Of a stretch of DNA of 34,296 bases, positions 25,538-34,296 are shown in pieces. Positions within the stretch are counted from its first letter, which is position 1. Every line of letters begins with the position of its first letter. Source of the stretch: Candidatus Methanofastidiosum methylothiophilum (GTDB taxonomy: Archaea; Methanobacteriota_B; Thermococci; Methanofastidiosales; Methanofastidiosaceae); assembly GCA_001587595.1 (NCBI GenBank), contig LNJB01000011.1, positions 7,984 to 42,279 on the forward strand, written 5' to 3'. A program made the position numbers and the translations under genes. The notes beneath the pieces were generated by a model that was not told the DNA's origin, ran no database searches, and saw only the letters and a list, made by a program, of their open reading frames with translations.

Positions 25538-25554
25538 CGAAAGTTTTAAATACT
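25538..25554 (+). promoter_or_regulatory. BRE/TATA promoter of the aromatic operon
   Basis: CCGAAAGTTTTAAATAC, with TTTAAATA at 25546-25553 centred 26-27 nt before the ATG at 25576. Its match to the 5S rRNA and psmB promoters suggests a strong promoter. Confidence 0.75.
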
Positions 25555-25575
25555 CAATTTTATCAGTTCTCATTG

Positions 25576-25644
25576 ATGGGAAAGATTAGGTCTTCCGAAG
25601 TGGTATCAAAGAAATTTTATTATTATTTTAGCTTTAGGTATTGA
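25576..25644 (+). CDS. Putative aromatic leader peptide (attenuator ORF)
   Basis: A 22-codon ORF whose ATG coincides with the predicted transcription start, so it would be translated leaderless. It begins MGKIRSSEVVSKK and ends FYYYFSFRY-stop, so seven of its last nine codons are Phe (TTT) or Tyr (TAT). It precedes an operon that makes the Phe/Tyr precursor. The aromatic codons lie inside the loop of the stem at 25602-25648. By analogy with bacterial pheL and trpL leaders, the ribosome would sense charged tRNA-Phe and tRNA-Tyr. AT-rich sequence favours TTT and TAT by chance, so the position and structure carry the argument. Confidence 0.7.
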   Translation: MGKIRSSEVVSKKFYYYFSFRY

Positions 25645-25648: not shown

Positions 25649-25662
25649 TTTCACTGGCCGAA

Positions 25663-25703
25663 TCCTTGTTTCTCTTTCCAATCCCTTCTTAGGAGGTTTT
25701 TTT
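25663..25703 (+). promoter_or_regulatory. Pyrimidine tract, Shine-Dalgarno and U7 before chorismate mutase
   Basis: A C/T-rich run (25663-25690) is followed by AGGAGG (25691-25696) and seven T (25697-25703) that abut the ATG. The strong ribosome binding site shows that this gene, unlike many in the window, is not leaderless. The U-rich tracts are plausible archaeal termination or FttA cleavage sites. Confidence 0.5.
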
Positions 25704-25988
25704 ATGGAGAGCTCAATAGAGTCCCTTAGAGAAGAAATAAACAGGATCGATGAGAGTATTATTAAACTGCTTTCAGCAAGAATGGAAGTAGCAAAAAAGA
25801 TAGCATTTCTAAAAAAAGAAATGGGTATACTAGTAGAGGATAGGGATAGAGAAAGGATCATTTTTCTCAAACTGGATGATGATGCCAGAAGAAATAATCT
25901 CGATGAAAATTTTGTTTCAGATATTTTTGAAAAGATCATTTCCCATTCAAAATTTTTACAGACTAATATAATGGAGGGGCAGAAATGA
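25704..25988 (+). CDS. Chorismate mutase, AroQ type
   Basis: 94 residues, a monofunctional AroQ-class helical enzyme that converts chorismate to prephenate. The active-site set lines up with E. coli numbering at constant spacing: R9, R26, K37, D46, R49 and E50 correspond to R11, R28, K39, D48, R51 and E52. The ATG at 25704 follows AGGAGG and a U7 tract. The frame is open further upstream, but that stretch lies within the leader. It is the first enzyme gene of the operon, and its stop overlaps the next ATG (ATGA). Confidence 0.93.
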   Translation: MESSIESLREEINRIDESIIKLLSARMEVAKKIAFLKKEMGILVEDRDRERIIFLKLDDDARRNNLDENFVSDIFEKIISHSKFLQTNIMEGQK

Positions 25989-27007
25989 TAGTTATAATGA
26001 AAGCAAAAGCTGAAGAGGAGGATGTGAATCAAGTTATAGATGCAATTAAATCTCTTGGCCTTAGAACACAGTTAAATTTTGGGGCAGAAAGAGTAGTAGT
26101 TGCCGTGATAGGGGATATTAGCAAAATTGGAGAAGAAAATTTTTTCAGAATTAGGGCAATGAAGGGAGTTGAAAATACAGTATTTGTTTCAAAGCCTTAC
26201 AAATTAGTTTCTAAAGATTTCAAAAATGAGCAGACTGTAATAGATGTAGATGGAGTAAAGATTGGCGGGAAAAAAATAGTTGTTTTTGCAGGGCCTTGTT
26301 CAGTTGAGAATAGAGAACAGATCATGGAGGTCGCAGAAAAGATAAAAAAAGCTGGTGCCAGTATGATAAGGGGAGGGGCATTCAAACCGCGTACTTCACC
26401 AAAGGATTTTCAAGGATTAGGAGAAGAAGGCCTAAAATTACTTTACGAGGCAAAAGAAGAAACTGGACTCCCCATTGTAACTGAAATAATGGATGCAAGA
26501 GATGTTGGCCTTTTGTCAGAATATGCGGACGTCTTACAAGTAGGAACTAGAAACATGCAAAACTACACACTACTAAAGGAGCTTGGAAAATGTGACAAAC
26601 CCATACTTCTTAAAAGAGGGATGTGGGCAACAATGGCTGAATTCCTTGGGGCTGCAGAATACATAATTAATGGAGGAAATGAAAATGTCATATTGTGTGA
26701 AAGGGGCATAAGAACATTCTCAGATTTTTCAAGAAATACTTTAGACCTTAGCATTATTCCTGCCATTAAAGATGAGAGCCACTTGCCTATAATATCTGAT
26801 CCAAGTCATGGTACGGGAAGGAGGAGTTTAGTTTTACCTATGAGCAAAGCTTCAGTAGCCTGTGGCGCAGACGGACTATTAATTGAGACTCATCCAAATC
26901 CGGATAAAGCGATAAGTGATGCGGATCAAACAATTTCCTTAAGTGCATTTTCAAAACTTATGGAAGATATTAAAAATATAACAAAAGCAGTTGGGAGGGA
27001 AGTATAA
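25985..27007 (+). CDS. aroF: DAHP synthase, type I-beta, copy 1
   Basis: 340 residues. It condenses phosphoenolpyruvate and erythrose 4-phosphate, the first step of the shikimate pathway. The N-terminal 70 or so residues form the ferredoxin-like domain used for feedback control in Thermotoga-type enzymes. The barrel has AGPCSVEN (metal Cys), [29 protein letters not shown] (His) and [15 protein letters not shown]. The size matches the regulated form rather than the short Pyrococcus form. It abuts its paralogue with no gap. Confidence 0.95.
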   Translation: MIVIMKAKAEEEDVNQVIDAIKSLGLRTQLNFGAERVVVAVIGDISKIGEENFFRIRAMKGVENTVFVSKPYKLVSKDFKNEQTVIDVDGVKIGGKKIVVFAGPCSVENREQIMEVAEKIKKAGASMIRGGAFKPRTSPKDFQGLGEEGLKLLYEAKEETGLPIVTEIMDARDVGLLSEYADVLQVGTRNMQNYTLLKELGKCDKPILLKRGMWATMAEFLGAAEYIINGGNENVILCERGIRTFSDFSRNTLDLSIIPAIKDESHLPIISDPSHGTGRRSLVLPMSKASVACGADGLLIETHPNPDKAISDADQTISLSAFSKLMEDIKNITKAVGREV

Positions 27008-28030
27008 ATGATAATAGTAATGAAGCTAGGTGTGGATGAAAGTCAAGTACAAGAAACAATTCAGAAAATTAAAGATCTTGGTTTTAATACCCACCTATCA
27101 AAAGGAGAAAATAGAACCATAATTGGTGTAATTGGAGACGTTAGTTCAATTGATGAAAGTGACGTTGAGAGGTTGCGGGCAACACCTTATATAGAAGAAG
27201 TTGTGCGTGTTTCAAAACCTTACAAATTAGTTTCTAGAGATTTTAACAAAGAGGACACTGTTATAAACGTAGATGGAATTGAAATAGGCGGGAAAAAAAT
27301 AGTTGTAATGGCAGGGCCATGTACAGTTGAAAGCAAAGACCAAATTATTAACATCGCAAGAGAAGTAAAAAATTCAGGGGCCACAATTTTGAGAGGAGGG
27401 GCATTCAAACCGCGTACTTCACCAAAAGACTTTCAGGGACTTGGGAAGGAAGGACTAGAATTCCTAGCTGCAGCAAAGGAAGAAACTGGACTTCCCATTG
27501 TCACCGAAGTCATGGACACGAGAGATGTAAAACTTGTATCAGAATATGCAGACATACTACAAGTAGGAACTAGAAACATGCAAAATTATGCATTACTAAA
27601 AGAACTTGGAAAATATGATAAACCAGTACTTCTTAAAAGAGGAATGTGGGCAACTTTGAAAGAGTTTTTATCTGCTGCAGAATATATTCTTGCAGGAGGA
27701 AATAATAACGTTATGCTGTGTGAGAGAGGGATAAGGACTTTTTCTGACTTCACAAGAAATACCTTAGACTTAAGTATAGTTCCAGTATTGAAGAAGGAAA
27801 GCCATCTACCAGTTATAGTTGATCCAAGTCACGGTACTGGAAGAAGGGACATTGTAAAATCAATGACACTTGCTGCAATTGCATGCGGTGCGGACGGTGT
27901 AACTATTGAGGCGCACACAGATCCACAAAAAGCCATAAGTGATGCAGATCAAACTATCAGCACTTTAGACCTTCATGAATTAATGGGAGAAATAAAATAT
28001 ATTTCTAGGATGTTCGGAAGGGAAATATAG
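27008..28030 (+). CDS. aroF: DAHP synthase, type I-beta, copy 2
   Basis: Also 340 residues, starting on the base after the stop of copy 1. The same domains are present: N-terminal ferredoxin-like domain, [27 protein letters not shown] and DPSHGTGRR. The last metal-site segment reads [12 protein letters not shown] rather than the usual HPxP. Short stretches of DNA identity to copy 1 (32 bases from 27395 matching 26372) fall in the catalytic loops, while the N-terminal domains differ. The pair probably answers to different end products (inference). Confidence 0.94.
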
Positions 28031-28031
28031 G

Positions 28032-29129
28032 ATGAATATCAAGGAAACTAAGACAATAAGTGTTAAGACAGAAAAAAGACCATATGATATAGTCATAGGT
28101 AGGGATATTTTTCGAAACGCACTCGAATCAATATTAGAAGAGAATAAAGAGTGTAATGTTGCCATCATAACAGACTCGAACATAGAAAAAATTTATAGAG
28201 ATAACATATACCAAGCACTTAATAAAAAGACTAATGTTTTTGTTATTTCATTTAAAGCAGGTGAAGAGTCTAAGAATAGAAAAACAAAAGAAGAACTCGA
28301 AGACAGACTATTTGAATTTGGGTTTGGCAGGGATTCATTAATTATTGCATTGGGAGGTGGGGTCACAGGAGATCTTGCTGGATTTATAGCGGCAACTTAT
28401 ATGAGGGGGATACCATTTATACAGATTCCAACAACACTCCTCTCCCAAGTGGACAGCAGCATTGGTGGCAAAGTTGGTATAGACCATCCTTATGGGAAGA
28501 ATCTATTAGGGGCATTTTACCCCCCGAGTAAAGTCTACATAGATATGGAATTCTTGAATACACTGCCAAAAGAAGAGATACTCAATGGATTTGCTGAAAT
28601 AATTAAAGCCGCTATAATAAAAGATAATGAATTCTTTGGATATCTTGAATCAAATATTGATCGAATAATAAATCTAGAAAATGGATACATAGATCATGCA
28701 ATTATTTCGGCACTTAAAGTCAAAGCTAATGTTGTTGAAACAGATGAAAAAGAATCAGGACAAAGAAAGATTCTAAATTTTGGGCATACAATCGGACACG
28801 CTATAGAAATACTTTCAAATTTTGATATCTCTCACGGTAGGGCAGTAGGGATAGGAATGGCAGTTGAAACCTTGATTTCCCATAGATTAGGTATTTTAAC
28901 ATCAGACGAAAAAGAGCAAATAATTGCATTTCTTAAAAAATCTAAGCTCTTAGAAAAATACCCCAAATTATCATCAGATGAAATAATAAAGAAAACAATT
29001 TCTGACAAAAAATCTAGAAAAGGGATAGTTGAATACGCCCTCATAAAGGGCATAGGCACATCGGTCTATGGAGTTAGAGTTGATGAAAAAATTGTAAGAG
29101 AATCCCTAAAGGAGATGGGCTTTCTTTGA
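28032..29129 (+). CDS. aroB: 3-Dehydroquinate synthase
   Basis: 365 residues, the classical NAD-dependent, metal-dependent AroB that converts DAHP to 3-dehydroquinate. Motifs are ALGGGVTGDLAGF, PTTLLSQVDSSIGGK, GKNLLGAFYPP, GFAEIIKAAII and NFGHTIGHAIE (metal His pair). Many methanogens instead use an AroB-independent route with a different dehydroquinate synthase, so this classical enzyme fits the two DAHP synthases beside it. It starts two bases after copy 2, and its stop overlaps the TTG start of aroDE. Confidence 0.96.
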   Translation: MNIKETKTISVKTEKRPYDIVIGRDIFRNALESILEENKECNVAIITDSNIEKIYRDNIYQALNKKTNVFVISFKAGEESKNRKTKEELEDRLFEFGFGRDSLIIALGGGVTGDLAGFIAATYMRGIPFIQIPTTLLSQVDSSIGGKVGIDHPYGKNLLGAFYPPSKVYIDMEFLNTLPKEEILNGFAEIIKAAIIKDNEFFGYLESNIDRIINLENGYIDHAIISALKVKANVVETDEKESGQRKILNFGHTIGHAIEILSNFDISHGRAVGIGMAVETLISHRLGILTSDEKEQIIAFLKKSKLLEKYPKLSSDEIIKKTISDKKSRKGIVEYALIKGIGTSVYGVRVDEKIVRESLKEMGFL

Positions 29130-30628
29130 TTACCGCTTCAATTATACCATCCTCTAAAAAGGAGGCAATATGTCTTTTGGACAAGGCATTATCTAAAGGA
29201 GATTTAGCAGAACTTAGAGTAGACTTGATTTCAGATTTAAATATTTTGGAAATTGGGAATTTATTTGATAAAAAAAGGGTGATTATAACAAATAGAAAAA
29301 AAGATGAGGGCGGACTTTTTGAAGGAAACGAGTCAGATAGGCTCCATCCATTAATTGATGCGATGAAACTTGGATTTGGATTTATTGATATAGAACACTC
29401 TTCAATAGATTCACTTAAATTACTAATCTCAAAAAAAAGAACATTAAAATCAGAGACAAAAATAATACTATCCTACCACAATTTTCAGAATACCCCTCTT
29501 GATATGAAAGAAATAGTGTTGCAGATGAAAGATCAAGATGTGGACCTAATTAAAGTCGTTACTTATGCCAATGATATTTCTGATAATCTAATAATAAAAG
29601 ATATCTTATTCCTTTTTAATGATAATCCTAGGTTAATATCGTTTTTAATGGGGGAAAGAGGGGAGATAAGCCGAGTTTTATGTAACTCTTGGGGAAGTTT
29701 TACTACATATGCACCACTAAAAGGTCTTGACATGACCGCTCCGGGGCAGATACCGCTAGAAGTCTTAAGGGATATATACCGGGTTAACTCTATTGATGAA
29801 ACTTTTGATATTTATGGGCTTATTGGAAATCCTGTTAAGGAAAGCATAGGATACTACGTTCACAATAAATTGTTTTCTTATTATAAAATGGATGCCGTTT
29901 ATTTGAATTTATTGGTGGACGACTTAGGAAAATTTATGAAGGTTTTTGAAGATTACTTCAAAGGATTTTGTGTTACAATGCCATTTAAAGAAACAATAAT
30001 TCCTTATCTGGGAAATATAGACCAAATGGCACTAAAGATAGGGGCAGTAAACACAATAAAGAAAAATAAGAATGAGCTACTAGGAACAAATACTGACTCG
30101 TTGGGAGCGGTATACTCAATTGAAAAAATAAGCACAATAAAGGATAAAAAAGTGCTTATCCTTGGCGCAGGTGGAGCTGGAAAAGCAATAGCTTTCGGGG
30201 TAGCTAGTAAACTTGGAAAAATCATAATTTCAAACAGAGATCATACTAAGGCAATTGAACTTGCAAAAAAGCTAGGGGCAGAAACAATCCCATGGGGGGA
30301 TAGGGATAGAGTTGATTTTGATATTTTAGTCAATGCTACAAAAATTGGCATGTCACCTGAAGAAGACAGTTGCCCAATGAAAGACTCATTTTTTGAAAGG
30401 GACCTGTCTGGAATAACTGTCTTTGATGCAGTTTATAGTCCAATTGATACTAGACTATTAACACTGTCAAAAAAACAAGGGGCAAAAATAGCAAGTGGGT
30501 TAGATATGTACATTGGACAAGCAATGGCGCAATTTGAGTTTTGGACGGGAATAACACCTTCCTATAAAGAAATGGAAAGATTCTCTAAAGAGGCTATACT
30601 TTTGAGAGGGGATAAAGCTGAAAATTAA
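29126..30628 (+). CDS. AroD-AroE fusion: dehydroquinate dehydratase / shikimate dehydrogenase
   Basis: 500 residues with a TTG start overlapping the aroB stop. Residues 1-215 are type I dehydroquinase, with ELRVDL, the catalytic H118 (SYHNF) and Schiff-base K143 (IKVVTYA). Residues 228-490 are shikimate dehydrogenase, with K288 (VTMPFKE), D324 (NTDSLG), the NADP loop GAGGAG (347-352), and NATKIGM. The substrate-binding motif is unusual: NPVKESIGYYVHN keeps S240, but the second Ser of the normal SxS is Gly242. Fusion puts two consecutive steps in one chain, as in plants. Confidence 0.93.
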   Translation: MITASIIPSSKKEAICLLDKALSKGDLAELRVDLISDLNILEIGNLFDKKRVIITNRKKDEGGLFEGNESDRLHPLIDAMKLGFGFIDIEHSSIDSLKLLISKKRTLKSETKIILSYHNFQNTPLDMKEIVLQMKDQDVDLIKVVTYANDISDNLIIKDILFLFNDNPRLISFLMGERGEISRVLCNSWGSFTTYAPLKGLDMTAPGQIPLEVLRDIYRVNSIDETFDIYGLIGNPVKESIGYYVHNKLFSYYKMDAVYLNLLVDDLGKFMKVFEDYFKGFCVTMPFKETIIPYLGNIDQMALKIGAVNTIKKNKNELLGTNTDSLGAVYSIEKISTIKDKKVLILGAGGAGKAIAFGVASKLGKIIISNRDHTKAIELAKKLGAETIPWGDRDRVDFDILVNATKIGMSPEEDSCPMKDSFFERDLSGITVFDAVYSPIDTRLLTLSKKQGAKIASGLDMYIGQAMAQFEFWTGITPSYKEMERFSKEAILLRGDKAEN

Positions 30629-31898
30629 AGAAATTAAACCTCTAAACTTTGAATTTGATGCGAAGTTAAAGGCTCCACCTTCGAAGAGTTATACACATAG
30701 GGCTCTTTTCATAGCAGCCCTTTCGGAAGGGAAGTCAAAGATAATAGGCCCCTTAATTTCAGATGATATTAAATACACTATAGACTCACTAAAAAAACTT
30801 GGTGTGAAAATAACAGATGATTTTGATAAAGATCAGAATATTATTTCTGTGGAAGGAACAGGTGGCATCCTCAAGGAACCCTCTTCTCCTTTATATATTG
30901 GTAATTCTGGAACAACTCTAAGATTTTTAATGGCCTTAGTTTCTCTTGTAAAAGGAACAGTAATAATTGATGGAAACGAAGAAGTAAGAAAACGTCCTGT
31001 TAAAGGTATTGAAGATTCTTTAAGAAAACTTGGGATATCTATTGATACAAATAAAGGGTGTCCCCCAGTCAAAATAACTTCAAATGGAGTTATTGGAGGG
31101 GAAACAGAACTAGAGCCAAGCCAAAGTAGTCAGTATTTAAGCTCTCTTCTTTTAACATCTCCATATTCAAACTCCACCATAAAAATCAAAGTTACTGGGA
31201 AGCTTCCATCAAGCCCTTACGTAGATATGACATTGGATGTAATGGAAAAATTTGGAGTATCTGTTTTAAGAAAAGACTATTCTGAATTTGTAATCACCCC
31301 TTCAAAATATGTTGGTGGTAATTATATTGTTGAAGGTGATTTTTCTAATTCTTCTTACTTTATGGCGATAGCTGCAATAAGTGGCGGGAGAATAGTAATT
31401 GAAAATCTAAATAGAAACTCAAAACAAGCAGACAGAGTTTTTGTCGATATTCTTGAAAAGATGGGGTGTAAAGTTAGTTGGGAAAATAATTTACTGATTT
31501 TAGAAGGAAGAGAGCTTAAGGGGCTAGAGATTGATATGAAACGATCTCCCGACATTGTTCCTACTTTAGCAATTGTTTCAGCTTTTGCCAAAGAACCAAC
31601 AAAAATATATAATATTGAAACTTTAAGATTTAAGGAAACTGACAGATTGAGTGCAGTTGCGAATGAACTTTCTAAGATAGGGTGTAAAGTTGAAGAGGGA
31701 AGTGATTATCTCATAATAGTACCTGGTAAACTAAAAGGTGCCAAAATTGAAACATACAAAGATCATCGTATGGCAATGTCGTTTGCCGTAGTTGGACTTT
31801 TTGTAAACGGGATAAAAATTTGTGACCCTGATTGTGTTTCGAAATCATATCCAAATTTTTGGAAAGATTTTTCAAAAATATCCAGAGGGATTAATTGA
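30618..31898 (+). CDS. aroA: EPSP synthase (5-enolpyruvylshikimate-3-phosphate synthase), probable CTG start
   Basis: The frame runs from a stop at 30603 and contains no ATG, GTG or TTG before the active-site motif APPSKSYTHR (K23 in this numbering). The candidate starts are CTG 30618, ATT 30624 and ATA 30612. CTG lies after GAGGGG at good spacing and gives 426 residues, the normal length. The first ATG, at 30804, would remove 62 residues including the essential Lys. Other motifs are GNSGTTLRFL, RPVKGIEDSL, SSQYLSSLLL, GDFSNSSYF, KETDRL and DHRMAMSFAV. The gene overlaps the end of aroDE by 11 bases. Confidence 0.88.
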   Translation: MKIKEIKPLNFEFDAKLKAPPSKSYTHRALFIAALSEGKSKIIGPLISDDIKYTIDSLKKLGVKITDDFDKDQNIISVEGTGGILKEPSSPLYIGNSGTTLRFLMALVSLVKGTVIIDGNEEVRKRPVKGIEDSLRKLGISIDTNKGCPPVKITSNGVIGGETELEPSQSSQYLSSLLLTSPYSNSTIKIKVTGKLPSSPYVDMTLDVMEKFGVSVLRKDYSEFVITPSKYVGGNYIVEGDFSNSSYFMAIAAISGGRIVIENLNRNSKQADRVFVDILEKMGCKVSWENNLLILEGRELKGLEIDMKRSPDIVPTLAIVSAFAKEPTKIYNIETLRFKETDRLSAVANELSKIGCKVEEGSDYLIIVPGKLKGAKIETYKDHRMAMSFAVVGLFVNGIKICDPDCVSKSYPNFWKDFSKISRGIN

Positions 31899-32407
31899 AC
31901 ATAGTTTTATTTGGATTGAGGTGCGTAGGTAAAACTTCAGTTGGAGTTAGCTTGTCAGATATAACTGATAAAATTTTTTTTGATACTGATAGGATAATAG
32001 AAAAAAGAGAATCAAAAACTATTCATGAAATAATAAACGAAAAAGGATGGGAGTATTTTAGACTAAAAGAAAAAGAAACTATTGCAGACGTATCCAAAGA
32101 AAATAATGCTGTTATTTCCTTAGGTGGAGGGGCACTGATGGATAGAAGCAATGTGGATTTGCTGGATAAGTCCTTTTTTGTTTTACTACGGGCAAGTATA
32201 AACACAATGAAGACTAGGATGGAAAAGGATGTACCAAGACCGTCATTAACTAAAAATGATTCAATTTCTGAGATTGAAGAAATTGTGTTAGAAAGAATGC
32301 CATTATATGAAAAAATAGCAGATATAATTATAGATACAGATAAACTTAGTGTCTATGAGATATGTGACAAAATTTTATTGGAGCTTGAGAAAAGGAGTAT
32401 GGTATAA
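31895..32407 (+). CDS. aroK: Shikimate kinase, bacterial AroK type
   Basis: 170 residues with a TTG start overlapping the aroA stop (TTGA). The P-loop is FGLRCVGKTSVG, the DxD motif FFDTDR, the glycine-rich shikimate loop SLGGGALMD, and the lid around RPSL. It phosphorylates shikimate with ATP. This is the P-loop enzyme of bacteria. Most archaea use an unrelated GHMP-type shikimate kinase, so transfer or an unusual lineage is likely. The stop overlaps the aroC ATG (TAATG). Confidence 0.93.
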   Translation: MNIVLFGLRCVGKTSVGVSLSDITDKIFFDTDRIIEKRESKTIHEIINEKGWEYFRLKEKETIADVSKENNAVISLGGGALMDRSNVDLLDKSFFVLLRASINTMKTRMEKDVPRPSLTKNDSISEIEEIVLERMPLYEKIADIIIDTDKLSVYEICDKILLELEKRSMV

Positions 32408-33489
32408 TGGGGGGAAATACTTTTGGTAGATTGTTTAGAGTTACAACTTGGGGGGAATCCCATGGTAAAGCACTAGGAGCAGTTATAGATGGATGTCCTC
32501 CAGGCATTAAACTTAATGAAGATGAAATCAATAAAGAGCTGTCATTGAGAATACCAAAAAGTAACGGGCTTTCAACTTCAAGGAAAGAGGAGGACAGATG
32601 TGAGATATTATCTGGAGTTTTTGAAGGGAAGACTATAGGAACTCCTATTTCTATTCTAATTAATAATCGAGATGTTGATTCCTCCTCATATGAAAAAATA
32701 AAAAATGTATTTAGACCAGGGCACGCGGATTACACTTATTTTAAGAAATATGGGGTATACGATTATAGAGGTGGTGGCAGGGCTTCAGGTAGAGAGACTG
32801 CCGGGAGAGTTGCAGCAGGTGCAATTGCAAGAGTAGTATTGAAAAATGAGATTAAACATTTTGAGTTATTGTCTTATACCAAATCTATAGGGGGTATTGT
32901 TTCACCCGAAGTTGATAACAGATCTTTGAAAAGAGAGGACATCATCAAAGATAGACTTTGGACTACCGATAAGACTATTTCTAAAAAAATGACTGAAAAA
33001 ATTTTGGAGGCAAAATCTAAAGGCGAGTCAGTTGGGGGGGTAGTTGAAATAGTTGCTAGAGGGGTACCTTTAGGATTAGGTGAGCCTGTTTTCGATAAAC
33101 TTGAAGCAGATATAGGAAAAGGCCTTTTATCCATCGGCGCAGTCAAGGGAGTAGAGTTTGGAGGGGGATTTAATCTTTCAGGACTATCTGGCTCTGAGAG
33201 TAACGACCAGATCGATTCAAAGGGATTCCTAACGAATAGAGCAGGAGGAATCGTTGGCGGAATATCTAACGGGGAAGATATTGTGGTGAGAGTTGCTGTA
33301 AAGCCTATACCTTCAATCGCTAAAGAACAAAAAACAATAGATATTGAGGGCAATGAAAGATCAATAAAAATTGAAGGAAGACATGATCCATGCGCAATTC
33401 CAAGAATAAATCCTGTATGTGAAGCAATGGTTGCCATTACGCTTTTAGACCATTTATTAATACAGAAGTCAATAGAGGGATTTAAGTGA
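32407..33489 (+). CDS. aroC: Chorismate synthase
   Basis: 360 residues. It removes phosphate from EPSP to give chorismate and needs reduced FMN. Motifs are TTWGESHGKALG near the N-terminus, FRPGHADYTYFKKYG, the RGGGRASGRETAGRVAAGA block, and near the end DPCAIPRINPVCEAM. Length and motifs are complete. It overlaps aroK by one base and tyrA by four. Confidence 0.96.
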   Translation: MGGNTFGRLFRVTTWGESHGKALGAVIDGCPPGIKLNEDEINKELSLRIPKSNGLSTSRKEEDRCEILSGVFEGKTIGTPISILINNRDVDSSSYEKIKNVFRPGHADYTYFKKYGVYDYRGGGRASGRETAGRVAAGAIARVVLKNEIKHFELLSYTKSIGGIVSPEVDNRSLKREDIIKDRLWTTDKTISKKMTEKILEAKSKGESVGGVVEIVARGVPLGLGEPVFDKLEADIGKGLLSIGAVKGVEFGGGFNLSGLSGSESNDQIDSKGFLTNRAGGIVGGISNGEDIVVRVAVKPIPSIAKEQKTIDIEGNERSIKIEGRHDPCAIPRINPVCEAMVAITLLDHLLIQKSIEGFK

Positions 33490-34296
33490 CTGTAGTTGGA
33501 ATAATAGGGGGAACGGGTAAACTTGGAGGCCTTTTCAGGAAAATATTTGAAGAAGAAGGATTTGAAGTACTTGTTTCATCGCGAACAACTTCTCTTTCAA
33601 AGGAAGAACTAATCAGGAAGAGTGATATAATAATTGTATCCGTTCCAATTAAATCAACAATACCAGTTATAAGGGAAATTACGCCTTTCATAAAAGAAGG
33701 GAAACTTTTGATGGATTTAACTTCCCTTAAAGTTGGGCCTATAAATGAAATGTTAAAATCTAAAGCAGATGTCTTAGGGGCGCACCCATTATTTGCACCT
33801 TCAATTGGAGATGTTAAGGGTCAGACTATAATATTATGTCCACAAAGAATTTCAAATAAGGAACTCTATCAAAAAGTAAATTTTATTCTTACCAATAGAG
33901 GTGCCAATATAGTGGAAATGACTCCTGAAGAGCATGATAAAATGATGGCTGTAATCCAAGGTCTCACACACTTTTCTGCTATAGCTTTATGTCACTGTAT
34001 GAAAGATTTAAATTTTGATATAAAGAAGAGTTTTGAATGTACGAGTCCCGTATACCGATTAACACTTGATATGGCAGGTAGAATATTAAATCAAGAACCT
34101 GAATTATATGCTGACATCTCTCTTTTAAATCCAATAACGCCTGAGATATTATTACAATACATCAAATCAGCAGAGACGCTATTTAATAAAATACAAACAA
34201 AGGACCGGGAAGGATTTATAAAATTTTTTGAGGAGGCTTCCCAATACCTTGGTGACTTTACAGAAAAGGCAGAAAAAGAGAGTAATTTACTAATTA
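33486..34296 (+). CDS. tyrA: Prephenate dehydrogenase, 5' part (cut by window end)
   Basis: Open from a GTG at 33486 that overlaps the aroC stop (GTGA), with 270 codons to the end of the window. The N-terminal dinucleotide fold has VGIIGGTGKLGGLF, then VSSRTTSL and IIIVSVPIKST. The catalytic region has LGAHPLFAPS and QGLTHFSAIA. It would oxidise prephenate to 4-hydroxyphenylpyruvate for tyrosine. Whether an ACT regulatory domain follows cannot be seen. Its position puts a tyrosine-specific step under the aromatic leader. Confidence 0.9.
   Translation, partial: MTVVGIIGGTGKLGGLFRKIFEEEGFEVLVSSRTTSLSKEELIRKSDIIIVSVPIKSTIPVIREITPFIKEGKLLMDLTSLKVGPINEMLKSKADVLGAHPLFAPSIGDVKGQTIILCPQRISNKELYQKVNFILTNRGANIVEMTPEEHDKMMAVIQGLTHFSAIALCHCMKDLNFDIKKSFECTSPVYRLTLDMAGRILNQEPELYADISLLNPITPEILLQYIKSAETLFNKIQTKDREGFIKFFEEASQYLGDFTEKAEKESNLLI

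Follow-up and report, generated by a model that had tools for sequence, protein, structure and literature searches.

Leader-peptide attenuation is a textbook bacterial mechanism, and trpL, pheL, hisL and leuL are ribosome-mediated transcription attenuators of this kind. Archaeal trp genes can be controlled by a TrpY-type repressor by way of a DNA operator. In the open-access literature, searches turned up no archaeal example of ribosome-mediated attenuation that has been worked out (subscription journals lay outside the scope of the search, and priority is not established); a software paper mentions incidentally that attenuation by leader peptides also operates in archaea (PMC10219788). The leader of the aromatic amino acid (aro) operon of the methane-producing archaeon Candidatus Methanofastidiosum methylothiophilum shares with the bacterial attenuators a short ORF where the transcript begins (a predicted position here) that includes a run of codons for the product of the operon; hairpins downstream, with a U-tract or over the ribosome site ahead of the first gene, are predicted here as well. 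This ORF is, with good confidence, a leader peptide gene of ribosome-mediated attenuation, its Phe and Tyr codons reporting the supply of Phe-tRNA and Tyr-tRNA; the start of transcription, translation, stalling and the switch are inferred.

The window (by which is meant the whole stretch of DNA that was analysed, 34,296 nucleotides) is part of a 42-kb contig of a 1.5-Mb genome. The promoter and leader ORF comprise:

25544-25552, + strand: TATA-like box TTTTAAATA, with CCCGAAAG just 5' of it, identified by sequence; YTTAAATA is present in 8 of 8 relatives
25576-25644, + strand: leader ORF of 22 codons, translating to MGKIRSSEVVSKKFYYYFSFRY and a stop
25615-25641, + strand: regulatory codons Phe-Tyr-Tyr-Tyr-Phe-Ser-Phe-Arg-Tyr, identified by translation and alignment; Tyr15, Tyr16, Phe18, Phe20 and Tyr22 are invariant

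The sequence-only reading of this DNA had proposed an ORF ending in FYYYFSFRY-stop and opening at the predicted start of transcription. Translation confirms the ORF and its end; the centre of the TATA-like box (25548) is 28 nt from the A of the leader ATG, in keeping with the second proposal, and the start codon is at, or 1 nt from, the predicted 5' end of the transcript. The chorismate mutase gene starts 59 nt past the end of the ORF. What defines an attenuator is met here to the extent that a short ORF stands between a promoter (inferred from the TATA box only) and the first gene of a biosynthetic operon, and that this ORF has a run of codons for amino acids that the operon makes. The operon consists of:

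25704-25988, + strand: chorismate mutase (AroQ), the first gene
25985-27007, + strand: DAHP synthase 1
27008-28030, + strand: DAHP synthase 2
28032-29129, + strand: 3-dehydroquinate synthase (aroB)
29126-30628, + strand: 3-dehydroquinate dehydratase/shikimate dehydrogenase fusion (aroDE)
30804-31898, + strand: EPSP synthase (aroA); the profile match begins at model position 52, and the true start may be upstream of the listed GTG
31895-32407, + strand: shikimate kinase (aroK)
32407-33489, + strand: chorismate synthase (aroC)
33486-34296, + strand: prephenate dehydrogenase (tyrA), cut by the end of the window

This is the aromatic operon, with tyrA last in the window, that had been read behind the leader; in relatives, pheA lies ~8.5 kb downstream of the operon start. 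The nearest named matches of the window's DAHP synthase (89-98% identical) are from Candidatus Methanofastidiosum or Methanofastidiosia. The tandem DAHP synthase genes (25985-28030) are ~65% identical to each other and possibly differ in feedback specificity.

The TrpE family (PF00425) is found in only 2 of 10 genomes of the genus (G000-G009), and trpB2 in all 10. In most of these genomes synthesis of Trp from chorismate appears to be absent, the pathway ending in Phe and Tyr, and a leader without Trp codons fits such a pathway. The absence of a Trp codon from the window's leader, which had been taken as matching a Phe/Tyr operon, is consistent with this distribution. (Of the two genomes with PF00425, G004 has Trp in place of Arg21 of the leader, giving FSFWY, and G001 is unchanged; no weight is given to this.) Near the 5' end of the trpE gene of G004 (L102; that of G001 is L103) an ordinary start codon is missing, and the ORF that precedes and overlaps the gene, MRGNLFWLSKNDKVPRKAFKEFKN, contains a single Trp codon; the gene may use a rare start or involve a frameshift.

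Eight genomes of the genus (metagenome assemblies, to the extent that they are named) have a contig that extends to this site, and all 8 carry the aro leader there; its position and the length of its ORF do not change, and it has neither indels nor in-frame stops. Loss of the ORF or of its aromatic run in relatives had been set beforehand as a refuting outcome, and both are kept in all 8. In the adjacent gene, for DAHP synthase, changes are seen at 100 of 110 fourfold sites and at 10 of 14 conserved Phe/Tyr codons, and in the leader at only 15 of 110 columns. The conserved stretch takes in the part of the leader that follows the stop codon, and variable columns of the ORF show no bias with regard to codon position (3, 4 and 5 at positions 1, 2 and 3, respectively). 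Aromatic codons that are conserved while varying synonymously or in length had been named as the support to be sought in relatives. The conservation is there; synonymous and length variation are absent from the Phe/Tyr codons of aro, and length variation is found in the Tyr run of a second leader (YYY/YYYY at paaK, below). The lack of synonymous change at the aro codons implies that the sequence is held at the RNA level. Single-sequence and alignment folds predict stems P1, P2 and P3, and a terminator-like hairpin follows them:

25575-25585, + strand: 5' arm of P1, GAUGGGAAAGA, with the leader start codon inside it
25673-25683, + strand: 3' arm of P1, UCUUUCCAAUC
25589-25592 and 25656-25659, + strand: 5' arm (GGUC) and 3' arm (GGCC) of P2
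25597-25609, + strand: 5' arm of P3, GAA..GGUAUCAA
25641-25652, + strand: 3' arm of P3, UUGAUACC.UUC, overlapping the leader stop codon
25684-25703, + strand: predicted hairpin CCUUC-UUA-GGAGG holding the Shine-Dalgarno (SD) sequence of the first gene, with U7 directly after it; terminator-like

The predicted stems are nested, P3 holds the aromatic codons in its apical loop, and all 15 variable columns fall outside the stems (P = 4.5e-5). Covariation at P1-P3 is uninformative because paired columns never vary among the 8 genomes, which leaves nothing to score; against shuffles, the leader of the window itself has an unremarkable MFE. As far as alignment and folding can tell, the aro element is RNA structure and ORF together, and the aro leader alone could not provide the choice between a translated sensor and an RNA sensor. 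Conservation of the entire leader past its stop codon, the even spread of changes over codon positions, the invariance of Phe/Tyr codons at the synonymous level and a closing stem like that of a riboswitch would all suit a metabolite- or protein-binding RNA (riboswitch-like, or a site for an aromatic amino acid regulator) with an incidental ORF, the AU-rich loop of P3 merely reading as Phe and Tyr. No Rfam family corresponds to such an element: a scan found no riboswitch family and no T-box match at the window or at those leaders of relatives that were scanned. This explanation is unlikely, if not to be dismissed, and evidence against it comes from other operons of the genus.

Two further leaders come from an unbiased screen that covered 1.41 Mb of a sister genome of about 1.6 Mb (its simple gene caller missed the aro leader itself). 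The first, MSLKPSNTTKVVTKDSFLKFWWWRY, precedes a trpB2 / NAD-kinase-like / tRNA synthetase gene group (the synthetase, of the class I W and Y family, is read as TrpS, and in G002 lies in the same gene group as trpB2). Its WWWRY end is kept in nine genomes, the N-terminal part changes and two genomes are one codon shorter; a hairpin follows, along with a U-tract in most genomes. The second ends in YCYYYGY and precedes genes for an aryl-CoA ligase (paaK), a sodium:solute symporter and an ACT-domain protein. It is kept in eight genomes, two of which have an extra in-frame Tyr codon (YCYYYYGY). In both of these peptides many positions vary and the cognate end is kept. The hisG leader of six genomes has an ORF ending in SCTAHHH, SCAAHHH, SSIAHHH, SCTAHHQ or SCTSYHHN, after which comes a hairpin at the hisG SD sequence; the downstream gene encodes histidinol dehydrogenase. 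A fifth leader, MELVIRGGAFLPLAKV and its variants, precedes leuA in nine genomes, its Leu, Val and Ile codons interchanging. This is the weakest of the five, in that its codons are spread and its terminator-like hairpins are no rarer than in shuffles (42/180). No cognate leader was found among those read at HMGL-like genes other than leuA. The window's own genome has the trpB2, paaK and leu leaders (L254, L265 and L142, respectively); the his leader is not seen there, no hisG of that type having been found in the incomplete assembly.

Two observations on these groups may be set down separately. The leuA leaders have a G-run hairpin inside the ORF. Upstream of the short hisG genes of family f4 (L130-L133) lie conserved short ORFs, MNATDGEAKARSAGRLHICG and its relatives, in which His is encoded once or twice; a GGCUAAGGCAC motif is conserved there too.

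With cognate leaders at hisG, trpB2-trpS and paaK, and less sharply at leuA, the attenuation that the sequence-only reading had inferred by analogy becomes a pattern, and its inference is upheld to that extent; the switch at aro is unresolved. The genus-wide set assigns Phe/Tyr to aro, Tyr to paaK, His to his, Trp to trpB2-trpS and, probably, Leu/Val/Ile to leu. What can be read from the DNA alone is the ORFs, their cognate codons, their conservation, the 3-nt indels and the hairpins, the last as predictions.

Matches of this kind are rare. Among 1547 short upstream ORFs of the sister genome, WWW occurs once (at trpB2) and the Tyr-run criterion is met once (at paaK); at least 7 Phe or Tyr in the last 9 codons are found in 0 of 1547 other such ORFs. 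In simulated 150-nt AT-rich upstream regions this last property occurs in 5 of 60,000 (8e-5), a Tyr run at a frequency of 2.7e-4, a terminal HH at 1.4e-3 and WWW in 0 of 60,000 (<2e-5). Since the matches stand before cognate operons, the joint chance of their occurrence is negligible, also when the number of amino acid operons examined is allowed for. Inside the ORFs of the five leaders 4 of 4 indels are of 3 nt; after the stops, 4 of 33 gaps are divisible by 3. This pattern constitutes the best sequence evidence that the leaders may be translated, and a further property of attenuators, conservation of frame and cognate codons, is met by it (all in-ORF indels being of 3 nt), with the reservation that little varies at aro itself. 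If the aro leader were a ligand-binding RNA with an incidental ORF, cognate coding in its loop as well as at hisG, trpB2 and paaK, where the sequences are different, would have to be coincidence, and the paaK and trpB2 leaders vary yet keep frame and cognate codons, with indels of 3 nt only.

Conservation of frame directly supports translation and nothing beyond it, and would serve equally for a leader peptide that is made but senses nothing, as a constitutive uORF or a small functional protein. This is very improbable: the match between codons and operon recurs in at least four operons, and the peptides otherwise diverge, unlike a functional protein. The cognate codons could also act without translation if, in a T-box-like RNA, they were specifiers pairing directly with uncharged tRNA; codons placed in a loop, with a hairpin downstream, are as expected of such an RNA. 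A single specifier would need no run of three codons, no start codon and no stop codon, the frame is kept through indels, and the Rfam scan has no T-box match in the leaders covered, so that a T-box can hardly be credited. Translated leaders that sense the supply of charged tRNA remain the preferred reading.

The distribution of the leaders is narrow. When a covariance model built on the aro leader is run over a phylum set of 115 genomes, 8 genomes of the genus give one strong copy each and the other 107 give none. (Weak extra matches were rejected, two being inside protein genes and the others chance-like.) The aromatic leader is absent at DAHPS loci of Thermococcales and at chorismate mutase loci of sister families; in the latter, chorismate mutase directly follows coding sequence resembling the end of aroC and is, for this reason, not a first gene. 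No leader ORF containing a run of Trp codons precedes trpB2 in the sister families. Four of these loci (L288-L291) have TGTACA..TGTAC repeats before the TATA box, close to the gene start, which we take to resemble a TrpY operator. Because the aro leader is confined to the genus among the 115 genomes, and sister-family trpB2 and Thermococcales DAHPS loci are without cognate leaders, the leaders look like an innovation of the genus Methanofastidiosum. That they form a regulon of at least four, probably five, attenuators (for Phe/Tyr, Tyr, Trp, His and probably Leu/Val/Ile), in which at least one DNA-operator system of sister families (TGTACA before trpB2) has been lost or replaced, is likely, though held somewhat less firmly than the reading of the aro ORF itself.

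The proposed mechanism runs as follows. A ribosome would load on the 5' AUG directly after its transcription, at a time when the downstream arm of P1 has yet to be made. With ample charged tRNA it would reach the stop codon and leave, allowing P1-P3 and the hairpin over the SD sequence or U-tract to form, and expression would be low. With Tyr- or Phe-tRNA scarce it would stall within the run of codons or at the final Tyr codon, leaving the stop-proximal segment unpaired and the operon expressed. Across the leaders, the read-out might be hairpin and U-tract, or the SD sequence.

In the alignments, all five leaders allow a pairing between the start-codon region and a segment that lies close to the stop or beyond it. 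At aro this is P1. At trpB2 it is CUAUGAG/CUCAUAG (98% of cells paired, 9 genomes); at leu, ACUAUGGAG/CUCCGUAGU, incomplete in some genomes; at his, UAUGGGCA/UGCCCAUCA, jointly changed to UGAGCA/UGCUCA in G002 and not kept in G004; at paaK, AUGAGGGA/UCCCUCGU. The paaK pairing is not favoured in the fold model (its value is about 0), and could therefore matter only during transcription. Downstream hairpins are predicted with a U-tract in trpB2, leu and paaK, and over the SD sequence in aro, his and paaK. In shuffles, the hairpin-U arrangement has a frequency of 5/180 for trpB2 (rare); that of leu, given above, is not rare. The hairpins of trpB2 and paaK show no more covariation than shuffles do. 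A U-tract read-out is plausible because archaeal RNA polymerase terminates at U-tracts, with aCPSF1 helping (PMC8716108, PMC8116511). A response is modelled at paaK, where CCUCGU pairs with ACGGGG (the SD sequence, with U7 next): a ribosome covering the final Tyr codon lowers pairing of the SD from 0.80-0.93 to 0.06-0.28, and one placed higher in the run does not. Constrained folding of trpB2 and leu gives no clear, consistent switch, and in that of aro the hairpin over the SD forms in nearly every ribosome state, so that no switch is shown there.

The occurrence of several cognate leaders within a single archaeal genus opens archaeal attenuation to test, and suggests that sensing of amino acid shortage by a stalling ribosome is shared by archaea and bacteria. 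It bears on the coupling of transcription and translation in archaea, which, if this reading is true, would be tight enough for the ribosome on the leader to determine what becomes of a transcript. A comparative case is at hand in trpB2, which is under an apparent repressor site in sister lineages.

Set against the bacterial attenuators whose layout they share, these leaders differ in belonging to an archaeon, in the placement of the aro start codon at the predicted 5' end of the transcript and its pairing in the closing stem, and in having, at aro and paaK, a predicted hairpin-U element that overlaps the first gene's SD sequence. Archaeal termination at U-tracts also does not need a hairpin (PMC8716108), which is a further departure from the bacterial attenuators. 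With translational attenuators such as ermCL (PMC10219788) the aro, his and paaK leaders have in common that a stalled leader ribosome would free an SD sequence held in a hairpin; in contrast to ermCL, the signal would be charged tRNA rather than a drug, and a run of codons, not an arrest peptide, would set the stall. T-box riboswitches likewise provide amino acid-specific control of amino acid genes, but the leaders of this genus have no Rfam match and carry runs of codons in a translated frame (translation being inferred) instead of one specifier codon. TrpY-type control, finally, concerns the same kind of gene, and a TGTACA-type repeat stands before trpB2 in the sister families; where that system has a DNA operator and a repressor, trpB2 of Methanofastidiosum has an RNA leader with a run of Trp codons.
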